From: Arthrobacter sp. PGP41
GTDB taxonomy: Bacteria; Actinomycetota; Actinomycetes; Actinomycetales; Micrococcaceae
DNA length: 64,000 nucleotides
Reading direction: 5' to 3'
Assembly (NCBI RefSeq): GCF_002953935.1
Contig: NZ_CP026514.1
Span: 682,001-746,000, forward strand
The notes under the pieces were generated by a model. That model had not been told where the DNA came from and ran no database searches. It saw only the letters and a list, made by a program, of their open reading frames with translations. The stretch's first letter is position 1. The number at the start of each line of letters is the position of its first letter. A program made the translations under genes and the position numbers. Shown here piece after piece: positions 3,769-64,000 of the stretch.

Positions 3769-4257
3769 CTAGTCCACCCAGATCGCGGGCTCGCTGGCAT
3801 CGGCCGCCAGCTCCCCGAATTCCCACGTCTGGGTTCCGGCATTGGCCGAGTAGGGCAGCACGGCAGCGAAGACAGAGCCGTCGCGGTGTTCAGCCGCCAC
3901 GTGGATGGCGTCCGAGTCCTCCTCCACCAGCAGGATGTCGCAGACCACGGCGGCAGCCCGGAAGTCCTCCCGGTTCTGCCGCAGCAGGGCTGTGAGGTCG
4001 CTGATCATGGCGTCGGCATCAAAGTCGCCGTCTGAACCTTCCGCGGCGTCTGCCGGCGAGACGGCCACCAGCCGCACCTCGCCGTCGTTCTGGACGGTCA
4101 GGGCGAAGGGCAGGAAGCCGCCGCTGCGGTGCAGCTGCTCCTGGGCGGCACTGACGCCCGTGCCCAGGAGGTTCTCCAGGTCCGTGGCGGTGGCATCCGG
4201 CACCGAGCCGCGCCAGGAGCCCTGTCCTTCGGAGCCCGGCTCCGGGGTGTCTGTCAC
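3769..4257 (-). CDS. Conserved hypothetical protein
   Basis: A 162-residue acidic soluble protein of unknown function, with no signal peptide or membrane segment. It has a proline/glycine-rich first 25 residues and then alternating predicted strands and helices (FLPFALTVQNDGEVRLVAVS, ICD-type core VVCDILLVEEDSD), compatible with one small alpha/beta domain. It starts at a GTG 6 nt after the phosphomannomutase stop, so translation is probably coupled to that gene. A short gap then leads to nsrR on the same strand. No family is recognised with confidence. Confidence 0.75.
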   Translation of the reverse strand: MTDTPEPGSEGQGSWRGSVPDATATDLENLLGTGVSAAQEQLHRSGGFLPFALTVQNDGEVRLVAVSPADAAEGSDGDFDADAMISDLTALLRQNREDFRAAAVVCDILLVEEDSDAIHVAAEHRDGSVFAAVLPYSANAGTQTWEFGELAADASEPAIWVD

Positions 4258-4263
4258 GCTGGC

Positions 4264-5682
4264 CTACGCCCGGACAATCGACAGGACCCGGTCCCGGACC
4301 TGTTCCATGGTGGCGCGGTCGGTCGCCTCGGCGTTGAGCCGGAGGAAGGGTTCGGTGTTGGACGGACGCAGGTTGAACCAGTAGCTGCCGTCGTTGGCCG
4401 TGAACGTGCTGCCGTCCAGGGTGTCGATGGTGATGTCCTCGTCCGCGAAGGCCGCTCGGACACGCTCGACGGCGGCGGGCTTGTCATCGACCTCGGAGTT
4501 GATCTCGCCCGAGCTGACGTACGGCTCGTACTCGCGGCCCAGTTCCGAAAGGGGTCCGTCCTGTTCACCCAGGGCCGCCAGCACGTGCATGGCCGCCAGC
4601 ATGCCCGTGTCCGCGTTCCAGAAGTCACGGAAGTAGAAGTGGGCTGAGTGCTCCCCGCCGAAGACGGCGCCTTCCTTCGCCATGACCGCCTTGATGAAGG
4701 AGTGGCCCACCCGCGTGCGGACAGCCCGGCCGCCGTCGTGCTCTACAAGCTCTGACACGGCCCGCGAGGTGAGGAGATTGTGGATGATCGTGGGGGTTGC
4801 CTCGCCCAGGGCCTTGGCGCGGGCAATCTCGCGGCGCGCCACCATGCCGGTAATGGCCGACGGCGAGACGGGCTCGCCCTTCTCGTCCACCACGAAGCAG
4901 CGGTCGGCGTCGCCGTCGAACGCCAGGCCGATGTCCGCGCGGTGCTCCACCACTGCCGCCTGCAGGTCGCGGAGGTTCTCCGGTTCCAGCGGGTTCGCAG
5001 GGTGGTTGGGGAAGGAACCGTCCAGCTCGAAGTACAGGGGGATGATGTCCAGGGGCAGCTTGGGGAGCAGGGTATCGCCCAGCACTGCAGGGGTGGTGAG
5101 CCCTGCCATGCCGTTGCCGGCGTCCACAACAACCTTCAGCGGCCGGGACCCGGACAGGTCCACGAGCTTGCGGAGGTATTCGGAGTAGTCCTTGAGGACG
5201 TCGCGGACACCGATAAGCCCGCGCTTGGCCGCGGCCGGGATGGCGCCGGTGTTGAGGTACTTCTCGGCGAGGGCCTGGATGTCCTTGAGGCCGGACTCGG
5301 AAGAAATGGGAACGGCGCCGGCCTTGGACATCTTGATGCCGTTGTAGCCGGCAGGGTTGTGGCTCGCGGTGAATGTGGCCCCGGCACGGTTCAGGTAACC
5401 GCACGCGAAGTACAGCTCGTCCGTGGAAATCAGGTCCAGCAGCTCAACGTTGGCGCCGCGGGTGGCTGCGCCGTTGGCGAAGGCCTTGCTGAACTCCGGG
5501 GAGGACGGGCGCATGTCGCCGCCCACCAGGATGGTTTGGCCTTCGAGCTGGAGGATGTCCACGAAGGCGGCCCCCACGGCTTCGACGATTTCGGCGGTGA
5601 TGGATTCGCCCACGATGCCGCGGACGTCGTACGCCTTGAAGGATGCCGAAAGGTCATAAGTCGTTGTCTGTTCGCTAGTCAC
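4264..5682 (-). CDS. manB: Phosphomannomutase / phosphoglucomutase
   Basis: A 472-residue alpha-D-phosphohexomutase that interconverts hexose 1- and 6-phosphates, supplying mannose 1-phosphate or glucose 1-phosphate for cell-wall sugars and glycans. All four family motifs are present: the phosphoserine loop TASHNP (about residue 104), the metal loop DGDADR (about 255), the sugar-specificity loop GGEHS (about 342) and the phosphate-binding RPSNTEP (about 442). The longest frame begins at 5826, but the GTG at 5682 starts the conserved protein and has TAAGAT 7 nt upstream, suggesting a leaderless mRNA. It is divergent from recQ. Mannose versus glucose preference cannot be read from the sequence. 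Confidence 0.92.
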   Translation of the reverse strand: MTSEQTTTYDLSASFKAYDVRGIVGESITAEIVEAVGAAFVDILQLEGQTILVGGDMRPSSPEFSKAFANGAATRGANVELLDLISTDELYFACGYLNRAGATFTASHNPAGYNGIKMSKAGAVPISSESGLKDIQALAEKYLNTGAIPAAAKRGLIGVRDVLKDYSEYLRKLVDLSGSRPLKVVVDAGNGMAGLTTPAVLGDTLLPKLPLDIIPLYFELDGSFPNHPANPLEPENLRDLQAAVVEHRADIGLAFDGDADRCFVVDEKGEPVSPSAITGMVARREIARAKALGEATPTIIHNLLTSRAVSELVEHDGGRAVRTRVGHSFIKAVMAKEGAVFGGEHSAHFYFRDFWNADTGMLAAMHVLAALGEQDGPLSELGREYEPYVSSGEINSEVDDKPAAVERVRAAFADEDITIDTLDGSTFTANDGSYWFNLRPSNTEPFLRLNAEATDRATMEQVRDRVLSIVRA

Positions 5683-10339: not shown

Positions 10340-12583
10340 TTACGTGGCCCCGCCAGCCAGCGCCTTCCACAGGAAGTGCTGGCTGCGGGCCTGCAGCGCC
10401 GCGGCCTGCCGGTTGTCCGAGGCGCCTGCGTGTCCGCCCTCCAGCGCCTCGTGGAACCAGACGTTGGGGATGCCCATGGCCAGCATGCGGGCTGCCATCT
10501 TGCGCGCCTGGACGGGGCCGACCCTGTCATCGGAGGTTGCCGTCCAGATGAACGTCTCCGGGTACTCCACCCCGTCCTTGAGCAAGTGGTAGGGGGAGAA
10601 AGTCCTGATGTACTCCCACTGCTCCGGGACGTCGGGGTCGCCGTACTCGGCGATCCAGGAGTGGCCGGCGGACAGCCTGGTGTAGCGGCGCATGTCCAGC
10701 AGCGGCACTCCGCAGGAAACGGCCCCGAAAAGCTCCGGGTACCGGGTCATCATGTTGCCCACCAGCAGGCCGCCGTTGGACCCGCCCACGCACCCCAGCC
10801 GCTCCCGCGACGTGACGCCACGGGAGATCAGGTCACGGGCAACGGCAGCGAAGTCCTGGTACGCCTTGTGCCGGTTCTCCTGCAACGCTGCCCGGTGCCA
10901 CGCGGGCCCGTATTCGCCGCCGCCACGGATGTTCGCCATCACGTACACGCCGCCGCGGGAGTGCGGTGCTTCCCCGTCCGCCCCTTGCGCGCCGGAGGTC
11001 CTGCGTTCCAGCCATGCCCTGCCGACGGTGCCGCTGTAGGCCGGTGTCCGGGAAACTTCGAATCCGCCGTAGCCGGAAAGCTGGGTGGGGTTCTCGCCGT
11101 CCAGTGGCAGGTCCCGGGAGGCAACCTGGAAGTAGGGAATCCGGGTTCCGTCGTCGGATACGGCGAAGTGCTGCTGCACTTCATAGTTACCGTCATCGAA
11201 GAACGACGGCGACGCCTTGACCACCGCGTGCCGGCTCACCACGCCGGGCGTACCGGACGCCGCACGCTCCAAGGTGCCGCGCAGCAGGGTGGTCGGGGTG
11301 GTGAAGCCCGTGGCGACGAGCCAGAAGTCGTTGCCCGCACCGCCGTCGGCCTCGTCTTCGTCGTCCACTGCGTAGGCGTTGACGTCATGCAGCGGCGGGC
11401 AGGCATCCAACGCCGACGACGCCCACGCAGCCTGGGCATTGTGCGTCGGCCGGGAGGGATCCAGCACCCGGATTTCGGAGGACACGTCCTTCAGGAGGTT
11501 CAACAGCAGGAAGTCCCGGGTCCAGCTCCAGGACTGCAGGGACGTATTCGCATCCGGGGTGAACAGCACGGCTATGTCCCGGGAGCCGGCCAGGTAATCC
11601 TCGAACCGGGCAGCGAGCAGCGAGCCTGCCGGGTACGTTGATGTGCCCAGCACCCAGTCCTGCCGGGGCCGGAACAGCACCCATTCCCGGTGCGCGCTGA
11701 CGTTTACATCGGTGGGGACGTCGATCTGGATCCAGGATCCTTCACGCAGCACCAGGTTCCTGCGGTTGAAGAAATCGATGTAGTCAACGGCGAAGGTGCG
11801 CTCAAAGCCCGGAGTGGAATCGTGAACAACCACGGCCATCATGTGCTGCTCGGGCACCTCGAACAGCCGCGGCGCTCCGGGCAGGGAATCCCCGCGTTTG
11901 AGCGTGACAGCCGTCCGGGCGTAGGAGGAGGCGGTCTTCGGCAGTCCGTCCGCCGTGGAGGCCACCAGCAGCGTGTCCGCGTCCAGCCAGGAAACGTGTC
12001 CCTTCGCCGTCGGCAGGTCAAAGCCGCCCTTCGCAGGGTCCACAAAGGCACGGGTCTCCACGTCGAATTCCCGGTACCGGTTGGCGTCGCCGCCGTCGGG
12101 GGAGAGGGCCAGCAGTGCATGCCGGTACGGTTCCCCGGAAGCGGGGCGCAGGAAGGTGGCGCCGTGGAAAACCCACTCCTGGCCCTCAGCTGCCGCCAGC
12201 GCATCGACGTCGAGCAGCACATCCCACTCGGGGGAATCCGTGCAGTAGCTCTCCCAGGTGGTGCGGCGCCACAGGCCCTTGGGGTTCTTCGCGTCCTTCC
12301 AGAAGTTGTAGTACCAGTCGCCGCGCTTGCCCACCATGGCGATCCGGTCCGTGGAGTCCAGCACCTCCAGGATGCTGCTTTCCAGCCCGGCGTAGTCCGC
12401 GTCCTCCAGGAGGTCCTCGGTGCGCGAATTCTGCTCCTTCACCCAGGCAAGCTGCTCCTCGCCGTAAATGTCCTCGAGCCAGGCGTTTTCGTCAGTGGGC
12501 TCGGGCGCGATGCCCTGCGGGTCGGTGCCGGAAGGGTTGCCGGAACCGGGGGCGGGCGCTGGATCAGCTTCAGTGGTGGTCAT
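10340..12583 (-). CDS. Prolyl oligopeptidase family serine peptidase (S9A)
   Basis: A 747-residue cytosolic-type peptidase, expected to cleave short peptides after proline. It has an N-terminal beta-propeller (about 70-480) and a C-terminal alpha/beta-hydrolase domain. The catalytic triad is readable: Ser in GGSNGG (about 603), Asp in SDDRVG (about 686) and His in GGHAGA (about 717). No signal peptide is present. The frame opens at 12877 inside the divergent gene; the ATG at 12583 gives a family-like start (NAWLEDIYG). It is divergent from the FAD/NAD-binding protein and probably co-transcribed with the GNAT gene. Confidence 0.92.
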   Translation of the reverse strand: MTTTEADPAPAPGSGNPSGTDPQGIAPEPTDENAWLEDIYGEEQLAWVKEQNSRTEDLLEDADYAGLESSILEVLDSTDRIAMVGKRGDWYYNFWKDAKNPKGLWRRTTWESYCTDSPEWDVLLDVDALAAAEGQEWVFHGATFLRPASGEPYRHALLALSPDGGDANRYREFDVETRAFVDPAKGGFDLPTAKGHVSWLDADTLLVASTADGLPKTASSYARTAVTLKRGDSLPGAPRLFEVPEQHMMAVVVHDSTPGFERTFAVDYIDFFNRRNLVLREGSWIQIDVPTDVNVSAHREWVLFRPRQDWVLGTSTYPAGSLLAARFEDYLAGSRDIAVLFTPDANTSLQSWSWTRDFLLLNLLKDVSSEIRVLDPSRPTHNAQAAWASSALDACPPLHDVNAYAVDDEDEADGGAGNDFWLVATGFTTPTTLLRGTLERAASGTPGVVSRHAVVKASPSFFDDGNYEVQQHFAVSDDGTRIPYFQVASRDLPLDGENPTQLSGYGGFEVSRTPAYSGTVGRAWLERRTSGAQGADGEAPHSRGGVYVMANIRGGGEYGPAWHRAALQENRHKAYQDFAAVARDLISRGVTSRERLGCVGGSNGGLLVGNMMTRYPELFGAVSCGVPLLDMRRYTRLSAGHSWIAEYGDPDVPEQWEYIRTFSPYHLLKDGVEYPETFIWTATSDDRVGPVQARKMAARMLAMGIPNVWFHEALEGGHAGASDNRQAAALQARSQHFLWKALAGGAT

Positions 12584-23065: not shown

Positions 23066-24769
23066 TCAGTCCTTGCGGCGGGGGAGGACGAGGATTGCGT
23101 CGCCTACGGGACGTTCGCCCGATGCGTCGGAGGAGCTGTTGACGACCTTCCCTCCCACGGCCATGGTGGTGGATCCGCCGCCGTCGAGGTTGATGGCCTC
23201 CACCATGCCCAGTGACGTGGCAACGTCTGCCGCCTCTTTGATGCTCAGCCCAAGGGATGCCGTCTGGCGTCCGTCGGCGGTGACCAGGAGCGTGCGGCCC
23301 TGGCCGTCAACGCCGGCGATGGTGCGCGGGTTACGCTTGTGCACCCAGCCGTAGTAGAAGCTGTTATTGTCCCCGGTGCGCACCATTCCGTCCCGCTTCA
23401 CCGTGACATTTTCGGCGCCGCCGGACACCAGGACCGGGCCGCCGTTGACCACGTCCGTGGACGTATTGGTCTTCAGGGGTTTGCCGTCCCCGCTGATGAG
23501 GTCCGCATCGACGTCCAGGCGGGCGCCCACCGTTGCCAAGCTGCCCAGCGTGGCAGCGTCGGCACCCGTGGCCTGCAGCGTTCGTCCCCCGGCCGGCACG
23601 GCCGTGCCCCGGGAAGTGTTGACCGAGGTGACTGTGCCCTGGCCGTCCAGCACCACTTCCAGCCCCGGCCCGGACGGTGTGGACGGGCCGAAGTCCGCGG
23701 TGAAGGCAATGACCTCGTCAGGGTCCGTGCAGGTGTAGTCGTGCAGGGGGAGGACGGTGGGAGCATCGCCCGTTCCGCCGCAGTTCCGGATGAGCCCCGG
23801 GACACGGTTGATGCCGTCCAAGGCCAGCTGTGCATCCTTGGCGGCCTTGCCGCCGTCGTTGTTCTCCGGGCCGCCGCCCACCGCGGCCACGGTGCCCCGC
23901 CAGCCCAACCGCTGGATGCTGGACTCGTTCTTCTTGCCGTCGATCACCAGCGAGGGCCGGTCACCGACCGGTTCGCTGAGGACCTCGCCGTTGAACACGG
24001 CTGTTCCTGCGGGATCGCCGGGGGCACCGGCCTTTGGGTCCAGGACGAAGTAGCCCCCGTTGATGCCGGCGAGAGCACCATCGGCAGCCGCCAGTTGGCT
24101 GGTGGTTTCCCGGTTGACCAGGTCGGGGCCGTATGTTGAAGCCAGCTCGCCTGTGAACTCCTTCGGGTCAATGGTCAGGACTTCCAGCTTCCACTGGCCC
24201 CTTGACTGGTCAATGCTCCCGGCGTCACCGTCCCATCCTGTGTAAAGCACGGACGATGAATAGCCTGCCGCCTTGATCCGCGCGACGGTGGAAGCGCCGT
24301 CGTCCTTCGTGGCGAACTGGCCGGCGCGCACCCGGTAACCCAAATCACCGCCGGCATCGGCGAACTGCGGGGACCGCACCTTCTCCACCCTGGCTGCCAC
24401 GCCGGCTGCGATGAGTGCGTTGGCGACGGACTGGGCTTGTGCCTCACCGGACAGGGCCGACGAGGGGGCGTCCGGGTCGGGTGAATTCGCCGGGATGGCC
24501 ACTTCAGCCGTCCAAAAAAGGGAAGGGTTGGGGGTTCCGCGGGTAATCGACGTGCGGGTCAGGCCGGGCGCCAGTTCCGTCACGTCGCGCGCTTCGGGCA
24601 GGTCCTGGGCGCCGAGGTTAAGTTCGACGGCGGGAAGGGCCTGGGCGTCCCCTGACGGGAGGGACGGGGTAGCTGCGGAAGGGCCGGCGGTGGTGAGGAA
24701 CGCTGCGGGAAGCCCGAGGACCAGGGCGGTGACGGCAGCCTTGACGGGGAGTTTGTGTGGGGATTGCAT
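23066..24769 (-). CDS. Secreted SPOR-domain / phosphodiester glycosidase-family protein
   Basis: A 567-residue exported protein. A Sec-type signal peptide covers about 1-34 (hydrophobic ALVLGLPAAFLTTAGPSAA). A SPOR-like repeat lies at about 110-190 (QSVANALIAAGVAARVEKV, GYRVRAGQF), which in other proteins binds denuded peptidoglycan. The C-terminal part (about 300-560) is the NAGPA/DUF2233 domain, with its conserved INLDGGGSTTM and final GERPVGDAILVL. NAGPA-type enzymes cleave phosphodiester-linked sugars, so an envelope substrate such as teichoic acid or capsule is possible. It is divergent from phoD, with PHO-box-like repeats between them. The start has TAGGGT 6 nt upstream. Confidence 0.85.
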   Translation of the reverse strand: MQSPHKLPVKAAVTALVLGLPAAFLTTAGPSAATPSLPSGDAQALPAVELNLGAQDLPEARDVTELAPGLTRTSITRGTPNPSLFWTAEVAIPANSPDPDAPSSALSGEAQAQSVANALIAAGVAARVEKVRSPQFADAGGDLGYRVRAGQFATKDDGASTVARIKAAGYSSSVLYTGWDGDAGSIDQSRGQWKLEVLTIDPKEFTGELASTYGPDLVNRETTSQLAAADGALAGINGGYFVLDPKAGAPGDPAGTAVFNGEVLSEPVGDRPSLVIDGKKNESSIQRLGWRGTVAAVGGGPENNDGGKAAKDAQLALDGINRVPGLIRNCGGTGDAPTVLPLHDYTCTDPDEVIAFTADFGPSTPSGPGLEVVLDGQGTVTSVNTSRGTAVPAGGRTLQATGADAATLGSLATVGARLDVDADLISGDGKPLKTNTSTDVVNGGPVLVSGGAENVTVKRDGMVRTGDNNSFYYGWVHKRNPRTIAGVDGQGRTLLVTADGRQTASLGLSIKEAADVATSLGMVEAINLDGGGSTTMAVGGKVVNSSSDASGERPVGDAILVLPRRKD

Positions 24770-24781
24770 GCTGCGACCCTA
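24770..24781 (-). promoter_or_regulatory. Leaderless -10 element of the SPOR/NAGPA gene
   Basis: TAGGGT at 24781-24776, then 6 nt, then the ATG at 24769. Confidence 0.5.
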
Positions 24782-24819
24782 GCCAGGCGCTTAGCTGGAG
24801 GACGAAGCCACACGCCGGA

Positions 24820-24922
24820 GTTCAGCAGGTTGTGGCGGAGTGTTCACGGCTAGTTTCCGCTGGCAGCTGCCGCACCCCTTCATCGCTTGTTTACCGGCGG
24901 GTTCCCTCGGAGTTCCCGGCGG
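24820..24922 (+). promoter_or_regulatory. PHO-box-like direct-repeat arrays upstream of phoD
   Basis: Two groups of direct repeats in 11-nt register. In the first, GTTCAGC (24820), GTTCACG (24842) and GTTTCCG (24853) start on an 11-nt grid, with one weak unit at 24831. In the second, GTTTACC (24889) is 12 nt before GTTCCCT (24901), and GTTCCCG (24912) is 11 nt after that. Actinobacterial PhoP-type regulators bind 11-nt direct repeats of the GTTCACC kind. The array ends 38 bp before phoD and faces it. Binding by RegX3 is inferred. Confidence 0.55.
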
Positions 24923-24960
24923 GAGGCGTCCTGTTCAAGGCTCAAGGGGACGCTGGCAGC

Positions 24961-26556
24961 ATGCCCTTGATCCTGCCTGGAAACTCCCGCCTGATAGACC
25001 GCCGCCTCTTCCTCTCCGGCGTGGCCGGTGTCTCCGCCGCTGCCGCGCTGGCCGCCGCCCCGGCCACCAAGGCGGACGCTGCCACGACGCCGGCGCGGAG
25101 CAAGGATGACCCCTTCACGCTTGGCGTTGCATCCGGCGATCCCACGCCTTCCGGCGTGGTGCTGTGGACCCGCCTTGCCCCGAAACCGTTCGAGCCGAAC
25201 GGCGGCATGCCCCCCGGCCACCCCGTCGTGGAGTGGCGTGTAGCCACCGACGCCGGGATGCGCAATGTTGTCCAGGGCGGCAGCGCACATGCTCCCGCGC
25301 AGTTGGGGCACTCGGTCCACGTGGAAGTGGAGGGCCTGGAACCGGACAGCGAGTACTTCTACGAGTTCAAGTTCCGCAACCACTGGTCCCCGGTAGGCCG
25401 GACCAAAACCTTGCCCGCCCCGGGGGCGGATGTCAGGCAGCTGGATTTTGCCTTCGCCTCCTGCCAGAAGTGGGATGACGGCTTCTTCCCCTCCTACCGC
25501 CACATGGCGGCAGAGGAACTCGACTTCGTGGTGCACCTGGGTGACTATGTCTACGAGTACGAGATCTCCGCGGACGGTGGCCTGCGCCGCACACCAGTGC
25601 CCGCCGCCGCGCAGCCGGCCCCGCAAACGCTTGAGCAGTGGCGGGCCCGCTACGCCCTCTACAAGTCGGATCCCGACCTGCAGGCTGCCCACGCCCGGTT
25701 CCCGTTCATCGTGACCTGGGATGACCACGAGGTCCAGAATGACTATGCCGGAGGCTGGGAGGGCCAGACCCAGGCCTTTACCGCAGTGCGGGCCGCGGCC
25801 TACATGGCGTACTACGAGCACCAGCCCTTGCGGGCACGGTCGCTGCCCCAGGGCACGGGCATGCAGCTTTACCGGCGGTTGCGCTATGGCCGCCTTGCTC
25901 AGTTGGACGTCCTGGATGGGCGACAGTACCGTGACGCCCCGCCCTGCGGCTGGGGCGAAGCCCAGGCATGCGAAGCGGCCTACGACCCCTCAATCAGCAT
26001 GCTCGGCCCGGAACAGGAGCAGTGGCTCTACGCCGGCCTGCGCGACTCGGACGTACGGTGGAACATCCTGGGGAACAACGTCATGGTGTCCCGCCTGGAC
26101 CACGACGGTGCCGCTGGCGAGCTGCTGTGGCACGACGCCTGGGACGGCTTCCCGGCGGCGCGCAAAAGGCTGCTGGATGTTATCGCGGGGCCTGCGGTGC
26201 GCAACGCCGTGTTCGTCACCGGCGACTGGCACTCCACCTTCGTCAACGATGTCCACCTGGACTTCGACCGGCCCGATTCGCCGGTGGTGGCCACCGAGTT
26301 CGTCGGGACCTCCATCAGCTCTAACGGTGACGTGCCAGTTTACGGGCCCTACTACGAGCCCATGATCGGGTTCAACCCGCACATTAAATTCTTCGACGGC
26401 GACCGGCGCGGCTACGTCCGTTGCCAGGTCACTCCTGAGCGTTGGCGTACGGAGCTTCGGATGGCCACCGCAGTGGGCACACGGAGCGCAGGACAGTACA
26501 CGCATGCGGTGTTTGAGGTCGAAGACGGCACGCCAGGCGCAGTGCGGGTTTCGTAG
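24961..26556 (+). CDS. phoD: Tat-exported alkaline phosphatase D
   Basis: A 531-residue extracellular phosphatase/phosphodiesterase that frees phosphate from organic phosphates. The N-terminus carries a twin-arginine signal (DRRLFLSGVAGVSAAAAL, about 12-30). A PhoD N-domain follows (FTLGVASGDPTPSGVVLWTRL), then the metallophosphatase core with FAFASCQKW, HLGDYVYEYE, TWDDHEVQNDYAG and VTGDWHSTF, which carry the metal-binding Asp, Asn and His residues. The ATG at 24961 is selected although the frame opens at 24757; AGGGGA precedes it at a slightly long distance. PHO-box-like repeats upstream suggest induction under phosphate limitation, as for phoD in Streptomyces. Confidence 0.93.
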   Translation: MPLILPGNSRLIDRRLFLSGVAGVSAAAALAAAPATKADAATTPARSKDDPFTLGVASGDPTPSGVVLWTRLAPKPFEPNGGMPPGHPVVEWRVATDAGMRNVVQGGSAHAPAQLGHSVHVEVEGLEPDSEYFYEFKFRNHWSPVGRTKTLPAPGADVRQLDFAFASCQKWDDGFFPSYRHMAAEELDFVVHLGDYVYEYEISADGGLRRTPVPAAAQPAPQTLEQWRARYALYKSDPDLQAAHARFPFIVTWDDHEVQNDYAGGWEGQTQAFTAVRAAAYMAYYEHQPLRARSLPQGTGMQLYRRLRYGRLAQLDVLDGRQYRDAPPCGWGEAQACEAAYDPSISMLGPEQEQWLYAGLRDSDVRWNILGNNVMVSRLDHDGAAGELLWHDAWDGFPAARKRLLDVIAGPAVRNAVFVTGDWHSTFVNDVHLDFDRPDSPVVATEFVGTSISSNGDVPVYGPYYEPMIGFNPHIKFFDGDRRGYVRCQVTPERWRTELRMATAVGTRSAGQYTHAVFEVEDGTPGAVRVS

Positions 26557-35987: not shown

Positions 35988-36650
35988 TCAGCTGTGTTCG
36001 GTCCCTGTAGGCTGCCAGGCGCCGGTCACCAGGTAGGTGACCTTCTGGGCGACCGAGACTCCGTGGTCCGCGAAGCGTTCAAAGTACCGGCTCGCGAGTG
36101 CGACGTCCACCGTGGTTGCCGGCGACTCGGACCACTCGGGTGCTGCGATGGCCTTGAACACACTGAGGTGGAGGTCGTTGATGGCCGTGTTCGCCTTCAG
36201 GATGTCCCGGGCCACTTCAAGGTCACGGGTTTCCAGCAGGACCGTCAACTTGTTCGCAATTTCCTTGTCCAGCTCAGCCATTTGCTTGAACGTGCCGGTC
36301 ATGGATTCGGGGATGACGGTAGAGGGGAAGCGCAGGCGTGCCAGCTGGGCGATGTGCCGGGCAAGGTCGCCCATGCGCTCAAGGGAAGCGCTCATCCGCA
36401 GCGATCCCACGATCATCCGGAGATCGCTGGCTACCGGCCCCTGCAGGGCCAGGATGTCGATTGCCCTTTCATCCAGGCTGTTCTGCAGGAAATCGATGCG
36501 GGCATCCGCAGCGATGACGTCCTGCGCAAGGTCTACGTCCGCCACCTCGAAGGAGGTGGTGGCTTTGTCCATGGCCTCGCTGACCAGCCGGGAGATCTCC
36601 ACCAGCTGGTCACCAACCTGGGTCAGCTCTTCCTGAAAAACCTTACGCAC
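35988..36650 (-). CDS. phoU: Phosphate-signalling regulator PhoU
   Basis: A 220-residue all-helical cytosolic protein that links the Pst phosphate transporter to the SenX3-type sensor kinase and damps the phosphate response when phosphate is plentiful. Two three-helix repeats carry the PhoU metal-binding pattern (ERMGDLARHIAQLA at about 97-110 and YFERFADHGVSVAQ at about 190-203). The frame opens at 36725, but the GTG at 36650 gives the family length and has GGA-rich sequence ahead. It is divergent from senX3, with a PHO-box-like array between. The pst genes are not in this window. Confidence 0.95.
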   Translation of the reverse strand: MRKVFQEELTQVGDQLVEISRLVSEAMDKATTSFEVADVDLAQDVIAADARIDFLQNSLDERAIDILALQGPVASDLRMIVGSLRMSASLERMGDLARHIAQLARLRFPSTVIPESMTGTFKQMAELDKEIANKLTVLLETRDLEVARDILKANTAINDLHLSVFKAIAAPEWSESPATTVDVALASRYFERFADHGVSVAQKVTYLVTGAWQPTGTEHS

Positions 36651-36742
36651 GTAGGCGTCCTTTCCTTGTAACTCCCGCCGGCCCGGTCCGGGCAGCAGGA
36701 ATCGCGTCGCCGTTCGGCACTCCAACTACCCACAATCCCAAA

Positions 36743-36786
36743 GTCCGGTAAACGGTTAAGCCCTTGCAGGTGAACGTTAGTTGAAC
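36743..36786 (-). promoter_or_regulatory. PHO-box-like array between phoU and senX3
   Basis: On the minus strand, 11-nt units begin GTTCAAC (36786), GTTCACC (36775) and GTTTACC (36753), all on one 11-nt grid with a weak unit between the last two. This matches the direct-repeat form of actinobacterial PhoP/RegX3 boxes. The array faces phoU and lies 93 bp before its start, and 60 bp before senX3. Autoregulation by RegX3 is the likely role but is inferred. Confidence 0.6.
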
Positions 36787-36846: not shown

Positions 36847-38112
36847 GTGGATCCTATGCTTATCGGCCTGGTGGCCGGCCTTATCGGCCTGGCGCTCGGT
36901 ACGTTCGGCGTGCTCGCTTTCCGGGTCAGTGAGAAACAGCGGCAATTGCTGGACGTTGACGCCGGCGAGCTCGCGCTGCCGGCGGGCGCTGCGGAGGTGC
37001 TTGCCGTCGTCGGACGCGCCTTTGTGGTGGTGGACGCGGTGGACGGTGTGGTCCGTGCCAACCCGGCCGCCTATGCCTACGGCCTGGTCCGCGGCCACAC
37101 GGTGGTCCATAAGGAACTGCTGGACATGACCGCCGGGGTCCGCCGCGATGGCGTCATCCTCGAAAGGAAGCTGGAACTTCCCCGCGGTCCCCTCGGCCAG
37201 GGAACCATCATTGTCCAGGTCCGGGCGGCGATGCTCGGGGAGGAATACATCCTGCTGCTTGCGGACGACCGCACCGAGATCACCAGGACAGAAGAGATCC
37301 GGAACGATTTCGTAGCCAACGTTTCCCACGAGCTGAAGACGCCGGTGGGCGCCATCTCACTGCTGGCCGAAGCCCTGGAGTCCTCGGCGGACGACGAACT
37401 GGCCGTCCGGCGCTTCGCCAAGCGAATGCACAAGGAATCCGGCCGGCTCGCCGCATTGGTCCAGGACATCATCGAACTTTCCCGACTGCAGGGAGCAAGC
37501 GTCACCCAGCAGGGCCGCCCGGTTGACGTCAATGCCGTGATCGCCGAGGCAGTGGACCGGTCCCAGCTTCCCGCGGAGAGCAAGAACATCCGCATTGTGG
37601 TGGGTGGCCGGACCGAGGCGAAGGTCTTCGGGGACCAGGACCTGCTGGTGACCGCGCTGCGCAACCTGATCGACAACGCCATTAGGTACTCCCCGGAGAA
37701 CACACGGGTGGGAATCGGCGTACGCAGTCGGGAAGGGCTTGTTTCCATTTCCGTTACGGACCAGGGGGAGGGCCTCAGCCCCGAGGACCAGGAACGCGTC
37801 TTTGAACGCTTCTACCGGGTGGATTCAGCCCGCTCCCGCCACACCGGGGGGACAGGCCTTGGCTTGAGCATCGTCAAACACGTTGCGTCCAACCACGGCG
37901 GGGAAGTGACCCTCTGGTCCCAGCCAGGGCAGGGCTCCACCTTCACCCTCCGGCTTCCCGAGATGGAGGGACAGGAAGGCGGGGAAGAAACACCTGCTAC
38001 CGCCACCACCGCCGCCGGTCCCGCGCGGGCGGGAACCGCAGGGTCCGAAAAGCCAACTGTTACCCAAGTACCCGGCGCCACCGGCGCCACCGAACGAGGA
38101 GCAAAAGCTTGA
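36847..38112 (+). CDS. senX3: Sensor histidine kinase SenX3
   Basis: A 421-residue membrane kinase of the phosphate-response two-component system. It has one strong N-terminal membrane segment (about 4-25) and a PAS-like region (about 50-140). The phosphoacceptor histidine lies in FVANVSHELKTP (about 161-166), and the HATPase domain has NLIDNAIRYSPE, DQGEGLS and GGTGLGLSI. It phosphorylates RegX3 when phosphate is scarce and is held in check by PhoU. The GTG start has TAAGGT 6 nt upstream. The C-terminus is a low-complexity Ala/Thr/Gly tail. The gene overlaps regX3 by 4 bp. Confidence 0.95.
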   Translation: MDPMLIGLVAGLIGLALGTFGVLAFRVSEKQRQLLDVDAGELALPAGAAEVLAVVGRAFVVVDAVDGVVRANPAAYAYGLVRGHTVVHKELLDMTAGVRRDGVILERKLELPRGPLGQGTIIVQVRAAMLGEEYILLLADDRTEITRTEEIRNDFVANVSHELKTPVGAISLLAEALESSADDELAVRRFAKRMHKESGRLAALVQDIIELSRLQGASVTQQGRPVDVNAVIAEAVDRSQLPAESKNIRIVVGGRTEAKVFGDQDLLVTALRNLIDNAIRYSPENTRVGIGVRSREGLVSISVTDQGEGLSPEDQERVFERFYRVDSARSRHTGGTGLGLSIVKHVASNHGGEVTLWSQPGQGSTFTLRLPEMEGQEGGEETPATATTAAGPARAGTAGSEKPTVTQVPGATGATERGAKA

Positions 38113-38789
38113 GCAGGATTTTGATTGTTGAGGATGAGGAGTCGTTCAGCGATCCGCTGTCCTATTTGCTGGGCAAGGAAGGTTTTGAGGTCGAAGTCGT
38201 GGACAACGGCCTGGACGCCATCACCGAGTTCGACCGGAACGGGGCGGACCTGGTGCTGCTGGATTTGCAGCTTCCCGGGCTGTCCGGCACCGAAGTGTGC
38301 CGCCAGCTCCGCCAGCGGTCCAGTGTCCCGGTGATCATGCTGACGGCCAAGGACGCGGAAATCGACAAGGTGGTGGGCCTGGAACTCGGCGCGGACGACT
38401 ACGTCACCAAGCCCTACTCCTCCCGCGAACTGGTGGCCAGGGTCAGGGCAGTGCTGCGGCGCCAGGGCGAGCCGGAGGAACTCATTTCTTCCACAGTGCA
38501 GGCCGGCCCTGTCCGGATGGACATTGAACGGCATGTGGTCAGCGTGGGCGGCGAGCAGGTGCTGCTGCCGCTGAAGGAGTTCGAGCTCCTCGAAATGCTC
38601 CTGCGCAATTCAGGCCGGGTGCTGACCCGCGGCCAGCTCATCGATCGGGTCTGGGGCTCTGACTACGTCGGCGACACCAAGACCCTCGACGTCCACGTGA
38701 AGCGGCTGCGCGGAAAGATTGAGCCCGATCCGTCGGCGCCGCGGTTCCTGGTCACCGTGCGGGGGCTTGGCTACAAGTTCGAGCCCTAG
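38109..38789 (+). CDS. regX3: Response regulator RegX3 (OmpR/PhoB family)
   Basis: A 226-residue DNA-binding response regulator. The receiver domain (1-118) has acidic residues EDE (8-10), the phospho-acceptor Asp52 in LVLLDLQ, and Thr/Lys switch residues (MLTAKD, TKPYSSREL). The winged helix (about 130-226) ends in the PhoB-type FLVTVRGLGYKFEP. It starts at a TTG that overlaps the senX3 stop (TTGA), preceded by GAGGAG. It should bind 11-nt direct repeats such as those seen before phoU and phoD in this window. Confidence 0.95.
   Translation: MSRILIVEDEESFSDPLSYLLGKEGFEVEVVDNGLDAITEFDRNGADLVLLDLQLPGLSGTEVCRQLRQRSSVPVIMLTAKDAEIDKVVGLELGADDYVTKPYSSRELVARVRAVLRRQGEPEELISSTVQAGPVRMDIERHVVSVGGEQVLLPLKEFELLEMLLRNSGRVLTRGQLIDRVWGSDYVGDTKTLDVHVKRLRGKIEPDPSAPRFLVTVRGLGYKFEP

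Positions 38790-59837: not shown

Positions 59838-64000
<4,163 letters not shown>

Follow-up and report, generated by a model that had tools for sequence, protein, structure and literature searches.

The Intergenic Region between phoD and a Divergent NAGPA Gene

The window, that is, the whole stretch of 64,000 nucleotides analyzed here, belongs to the genome of Arthrobacter sp. PGP41 (4.27 Mb, a single contig). Two divergent genes, phoD and a gene encoding a protein with a NAGPA domain, are separated by a gap of 191 bp (24770–24960), delimited by the phoD ATG at 24961 on the plus strand and the NAGPA ATG at 24769 on the minus strand. The features of this region and of the regulatory genes of the window are as follows:

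23066..24769, minus strand: NAGPA gene, 567 aa; SPOR domain and NAGPA phosphodiester glycosidase domain, signal-like N-terminal segment
24776..24781, minus strand: −10-like TAGGGT, 6 nt upstream of the NAGPA start codon
24820..24859, plus strand: distal array (cluster 1); units at 24820 and 24842 strong, those at 24831 and 24853 poor; on the strand opposite to the NAGPA gene
24878..24918, plus strand: proximal array of phoD (cluster 2); CTTCATC, GTTTACC, then after a 12-nt step GTTCCCT and GTTCCCG
24933..24939, plus strand: extra unit GTTCAAG, 28 nt upstream of the phoD start codon; score 7.0
24949..24954, plus strand: possible −10 of phoD, GACGCT, a weak match 6 nt upstream of the start codon
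24961..26556, plus strand: phoD, 531 aa; Tat-type signal RRLFLSG; start taken from alignments opening at residue 1
35988..36725, minus strand: phoU, matching TIGR02135 with 160.9 bits (cut-off 130.25); longest frame, the true start being probably slightly further in
36747..36786, minus strand: array of four units in the phoU-senX3 gap; highest-scoring array of the window (28.5), from a training family
36847..38112, plus strand: senX3-like sensor kinase gene, adjoining regX3 and phoU
38109..38789, plus strand: regX3 response regulator gene, 13 kb from the gap; likely reader of the arrays

The phoD product, one of four PhoD matches in the genome, is recognized by the Pfam models PhoD (380 bits) and PhoD_N (103.7 bits), both above their cut-offs, and scores 549 bits with the NCBIfam model AlkPhosPhoDBac, under its cut-off of 1000. 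The product of the divergent gene matches Pfam NAGPA with 112.6 bits (cut-off 25) and SPOR with 26.3 bits.

A preliminary description of this DNA had reported six PHO-box-like heptamers, in two clusters, in front of phoD. All six are present letter for letter: GTTCAGC at 24820, GTTCACG at 24842, GTTTCCG at 24853, GTTTACC at 24889, GTTCCCT at 24901, and GTTCCCG at 24912. The 11-nt grid proposed for cluster 1 holds for its three heptamers, but the grid slot at 24831 (TGTGGCG) is not a repeat. The named heptamers of cluster 2 are spaced by 12 and then 11 nt. Two further units had been missed, namely GTTCAAG at 24933 and CTTCATC at 24878, which precedes the heptamer at 24889 by 11 nt.

Scoring of the Arrays with a PHO-Box Matrix

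We built a weight matrix from the upstream DNA of pstS (30 loci out of 36 matches), phoU-senX3 (30 out of 37), and phoD4 (19 out of 22), all from the genus Pseudarthrobacter. Here, phoD4 designates the phoD at position 3460198 of the genome, a gene other than the phoD of the window. The gap and its relatives were kept out of the training. Because refinement started from the known core GTTCACC as a seed, the resemblance of the matrix to this core is partly built in. The refined matrix describes an 11-nt unit, GTTCAcCt (8.7 bits), with a maximum unit score of 11.6. Plain 11-nt arrays are found in most training loci: GTTCAACTAAC GTTCACCTGCA AGGGCTTAACC GTTTACC upstream of phoU in this genome (36786–36747, minus strand), GTTAATCCTCC GTTAACC upstream of pstS, and GTTCAACCGGG GCTCACCCGGG GTTCACC upstream of phoD4.

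In cluster 1, the slots at 24820, 24831, 24842, and 24853 score 9.4, −11.8, 8.3, and −0.3, respectively. Of the three repeats reported there, GTTCAGC and GTTCACG score well and GTTTCCG is hardly a unit; the distal array thus depends on two good units spaced by 22 nt. A similar strong-weak-strong pattern is observed upstream of phoD4 in distant species. The units of cluster 2, at 24878, 24889, 24901, and 24912, score 7.5, 8.7, 4.2, and 2.6.

Both arrays stand out in the window when it is scanned with the matrix. In a rigid four-unit scan of both strands, the top scores are those of the phoU-senX3 array (28.5) with its overlapping shifts, of a site in a 16S rRNA gene (20.0), and of the distal array at 24820 (15.4), which comes sixth by position and third as a separate place. 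If one 10- or 12-nt step is allowed, the proximal array scores 21.0 and ranks second among 127,918 positions, only a training site being higher, and the distal array ranks thirteenth. The 20.0 array, at 59973 on the minus strand, falls inside the 16S rRNA gene and was discarded; it is the only high matrix score of unrelated origin. The rRNA operon occupies positions 59839–64000 of the window, with the 16S gene at 59839–61361 and the start of the 23S gene from 61857.

Repeats of this kind might arise by chance in GC-rich intergenic DNA: two of the named units barely score, and the 16S rRNA gene holds a comparable rigid score. However, among 5,000 dinucleotide shuffles of the gap (24770–24960), none reached the proximal score, a fraction of 0.0012 reached the distal score, and none reached both jointly. 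A background set of 26 loci elsewhere in this genome, seven of them chosen for GTTCACC-like repeats, provided 172,924 positions, none of which attained the proximal score of 21.0; the distal score of 15.4 was reached at seven positions, and in 5 of 881 overlapping 191-bp tiles. Chance was rejected on these shuffles and background loci. The fixed positions of the sites across diverged NAGPA loci, described below (background 0.41% per position), also argue against it, and we consider this explanation hardly credible.

In the whole genome, the pattern GTTCACC-N4-GTTCACC with up to three mismatches occurs at 267 + 276 sites, compared with 105 + 111 for the reversed pattern, a count that serves as a lead only, since the pattern is too loose and does not distinguish coding DNA. 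The sole site with a single mismatch in this search is located upstream of phoD4.

Streptomyces PHO boxes are made of units of 11 nt built around the core GTTCACC, and PhoP needs two of these units (PMC6988585, PMC4415409). The proximal array similarly comprises at least two direct-repeat units with an 11-nt step and a GTTCACC-like core. The repeats are very likely ordinary PHO boxes of the actinobacterial PhoP/RegX3 type, and their PHO-box-like nature, as first described, is well supported by the matrix ranks and the shuffles. They share with the PhoP boxes of S. coelicolor (consensus from the same two papers) the unit, the 11-nt step, and the presence of arrays before pstS and beside phoU-sensor-regulator genes. 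They differ in belonging to another genus and being known from sequence, in the single 12-nt step of the phoD array, and in the distal array, whose two good units, 22 nt apart, read away from the gene assigned to it below.

RegX3 as the Predicted Regulator

The preliminary description had named RegX3 as the regulator, and this protein proved the likeliest candidate. The closest solved relative of the regX3 product is M. tuberculosis RegX3 (PDB 2oqr, 361.9 bits), MtrA coming next with 204.9 bits, and its recognition segment, TKTLDVHVKRLR, is identical to that of RegX3. Its gene lies beside senX3 and phoU. No NCBIfam equivalog above cut-off was found for this product among the matches listed. 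The SenX3-like kinase scores 268.8 bits with PnpS and 258.2 bits with PhoR, each under its cut-off. The next regulator of the genome is 48% identical to RegX3, with a different segment, and may be MtrA.

The RegX3 box of Mycobacterium smegmatis is given as GT/GTCAcc-n4-cG (PMC7884335). Its core is compatible with our matrix, and RegX3 here shares the recognition segment; unlike this shorter motif, our arrays contain up to four units. The PolR regulator of Microlunatus phosphovorus binds GTTCACnnnnnGTTCaC, also near-identical direct repeats of 11-nt period located before phosphate-related genes, whereas PolS of this species is described as DevS-like, that is, from another sensor family (PMC6754071). 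Since nearly identical sites thus occur with a different sensor family, the motif alone cannot name its protein.

Another regulator, MtrA or a GlnR- or AfsR-like factor, might read the sites, alone or in competition with RegX3. Published MtrA sites likewise have an 11-nt period, and their motif, [GT]T[GA]ACC-N5-GT[GT]AC (PMC5650626), fits the gap at best with 2 mismatches out of 11, versus 2 out of 12 for the best PHO pair. MtrA may furthermore be the nearest paralogue of RegX3 in this genome, and in Streptomyces AfsR is described as competing at PHO boxes and PhoP, GlnR, and MtrA as sharing sites (PMC6988585). At phoU-senX3, however, the PHO pair is found without any mismatch and the MtrA motif with three at best, so that the mismatch count separates the two motifs there, although not at the gap. 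In addition, the matrix motif was learned from phosphate genes, and both target genes, judging from their families, act on phosphate esters. A reader other than RegX3 is thus rather unlikely, and RegX3 is the likely reader of both arrays.

Conservation of the Two Arrays

The nearest relatives found for the phoD of the window are in Pseudarthrobacter sp. GA104 (L051, 97%) and MDT3-9 (L052, 93%). The next ones, 57–67% identical, belong to other actinobacterial genera (L053–L083), and no other phoD closer than 47% was found in the 59 genomes searched. A genome outside this set carries a phoD 96% identical over 436 residues (L248). From these relatives, the genus of the window is very likely Pseudarthrobacter, within which this phoD seems to be rare and accessory. 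The proximal array is conserved in L051 and in L052, which reads GTTCATG, GTTAGCC, GTTCCCT, GTTCCCG, then GTTCACG; in L248, one unit, the fourth, is lost, reading GCCCCCG. The unit at 24933 is GTTCAAG in L051 and GTTCACG in L052, and L052 has CATGCT in place of the candidate −10 GACGCT. In the L052 locus examined, no NAGPA gene accompanies phoD, the DNA further upstream is unrelated, and the distal array is absent.

Among 206 Pseudarthrobacter genomes, 44 carry NAGPA relatives at E ≤ 1e-150, with 46 matches in total. We examined the promoters of 33 of these matches and of L144, that is, 34 loci; L141 (the same gene as L144) and the partial L142 and L145 were left out. TANNNT ending 6–8 nt before the start codon is present at 29 of the 34 loci (background 0.29% per position), which makes a leaderless NAGPA start likely. 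We distinguished a promoter class of 29 of the 34 loci. Among these, 28, including the window, have a unit scoring over 5.5 (background 0.41% per position) on the opposite strand at 72–75 or 83–86 nt, and 17 also have one 51–53 nt before the NAGPA start; the class was drawn after looking, and its loci are related, so these counts are not independent. The NAGPA proteins of the class differ by up to 38%. With start codons set by hand, the window, L132, L133, L136, L137, and L143 show opposite-strand units at 51–53 and 73–75 nt. In the five loci outside the class (L134, L140, L144, L252, and L253), the units are on the same strand as the gene; the script misplaced the start codons of L134 and L140 in the 34-locus counts, and they were set by hand for the close reading. 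This also applies to L133 in the promoter shuffle test, where the best array of L131 is that of phoD, as the gap is common to both genes.

A phoD gene was found in the examined flank of 4 of the 34 NAGPA loci (window, L248, L252, and L253) and was absent from that of 27 of the 29 loci of the class. L132 and L133 have no divergent frame of at least 110 aa within 1.4 kb upstream; the site can thus be explained without a divergent neighbor. L138 and L139 do have a divergent frame upstream of NAGPA, opening MPLTTFAL(I/V)RHG, presumably that of a histidine phosphatase.

This distribution supports the assignment of the distal array to the NAGPA gene, as its own conserved putative site, and of the proximal array to phoD. 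The placement of both clusters in front of phoD thus stands for the proximal one, but the distal one corresponds to the site of the divergent gene at 28 of 29 loci. The possible control of the divergent secreted hydrolase, raised with reservation in the preliminary description, is supported for cluster 1 by this conserved site. The gap could alternatively form one large phoD operator, with both arrays loading several RegX3 dimers and the NAGPA gene a bystander: both arrays are on the plus strand, reading toward phoD, and Streptomyces PHO boxes can reach four or five units (PMC7866108). This is difficult to reconcile with the retention of a distal-type site before NAGPA genes with no phoD in the examined flank (27 of 29) and its absence from L052, which has phoD but no NAGPA gene beside it. 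An operator serving phoD alone was rejected on the NAGPA loci, and we regard the single operator as quite improbable.

Array changes in two single lineages also bear on the split between two sites, although they are only suggestive. In L051, NAGPA sequences are found on the minus strand at about 3931–4809 and 10818–11588: the gene adjoining phoD is fragmented, and a further match is located at the locus edge. Here the distal unit reads GTTCGCG instead of GTTCACG (score 2.8 instead of 8.3) and the strength of the proximal array is kept. In L248, whose NAGPA match spans residues 1–567, the distal units are unchanged and the fourth proximal unit is the altered one.

Predicted Joint Control of phoD and NAGPA

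We propose that the gap probably contains two independent PHO boxes, RegX3 activating phoD from the proximal one and controlling NAGPA from the distal one. When phosphate is short, SenX3 would phosphorylate RegX3, and RegX3~P would load head-to-tail onto the 11-nt direct repeats. Bound to the proximal array and the unit at 24933, it would activate phoD; bound to the distal array, it would control the divergent phosphodiester glycosidase gene. The sequences themselves show the repeats, with their statistics, their conservation, and the linkage of each array to its gene; binding by RegX3, low phosphate as the signal, and activation as the effect are what we infer from the protein families. The sign of control at NAGPA is the least certain step, as the distal array is oriented away from the promoter of this gene; the NAGPA boxes of the larger class would likewise act in reverse orientation. 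The usual effect is activation, with occasional repression (PMC6988585). The organization of the gap suggests that both enzymes would be under joint control in phosphate shortage.

The NAGPA-phoD pairing is seen with two types of phoD, that of the window and L248 and a 46%-identical one (L252 and L253, from two other genomes of the genus). In L252, inspection by eye reveals a separate two-unit box for phoD, GTTAACTCCCGGTTCATC, and same-strand units for NAGPA, GTTAACC and GTTAATT. Pairing with two different phoD genes, each gene having its own array, may point to selection for joint use. Relatives of Arthrobacter have sugar-phosphate wall polymers; a literature search on such polymers gave nothing specific among the matches listed. 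As a tentative extension, less probable than the two-box model itself, NAGPA and PhoD may constitute a phosphate-salvage module on wall glycopolymers, with a separate RegX3 box for each gene: the NAGPA enzyme would cut the sugar-1-phosphodiester and PhoD the remaining ester. Such joint release of phosphate is suggested by the action of PhoD on teichoic acid and by the membership of NAGPA in a phosphodiester glycosidase family. In Bacillus subtilis, PhoD and GlpQ are teichoic-acid hydrolases of phosphate starvation, PhoD acting on wall teichoic acid (cited in PMC11488536). The PhoD described here would resemble that of B. subtilis, a secreted enzyme that in that species frees phosphate from a wall polymer upon starvation (same source), but it is paired with a NAGPA-domain protein and not with GlpQ. 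Should the two enzymes act on wall polymers, a hidden reserve of phosphate could be tested for.

What appears new is the NAGPA site, conserved across loci, together with the repeated association of NAGPA with phoD, both recognized by sequence comparison. The literature searched contained no paper joining "phosphodiester glycosidase" and "Pho regulon", other enzyme names having been tried non-exhaustively. For Arthrobacter, PHO boxes, and RegX3, the genus was mentioned solely in reviews among the matches listed. For Pseudarthrobacter, common soil bacteria, the analysis provides a PHO-box matrix and predicts that a secreted phosphodiester glycosidase belongs to the conserved part of the Pho regulon.

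Candidate PHO Boxes at Other phoD Genes

The units of the window-type phoD are located 83, 72, 60, 49, and 28 nt from the start codon. Those of phoD4 are at 73, 62, and 51 nt here and about 50, 39, and 28 nt in distant species, and the phoD class of L019 has a same-strand unit 58–62 nt before the start at 23 of 27 loci. The distances are comparable among the phoD classes and mostly differ by multiples of about 11, which would fit a factor touching RNA polymerase.

Besides the three Pseudarthrobacter loci, 30 far phoD promoters were tested against 200 shuffles each, L053 having been dropped (63 bases upstream). An array matched by at most 2 of the 200 shuffles is present at 11 of them, on the same strand in six and on the opposite strand in five; eight are no better than chance, at least 70 shuffles doing as well. 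With promoters of far orthologues so mixed, the box may not be universal for this phoD.

By eye, we noted in L017 (2335–2385, upstream of the fourth phoD of the genome, at genome positions 108432–110093, and on the strand opposite to it) the heptamers TTTTGCC, GTTCACC, GTGCCAC, GTTCTCC, and GTTCCGC on an 11-nt grid, in an opposite-strand orientation resembling that at NAGPA. L022 carries two back-to-back phoD genes, 45% and 38% identical to that of the window.
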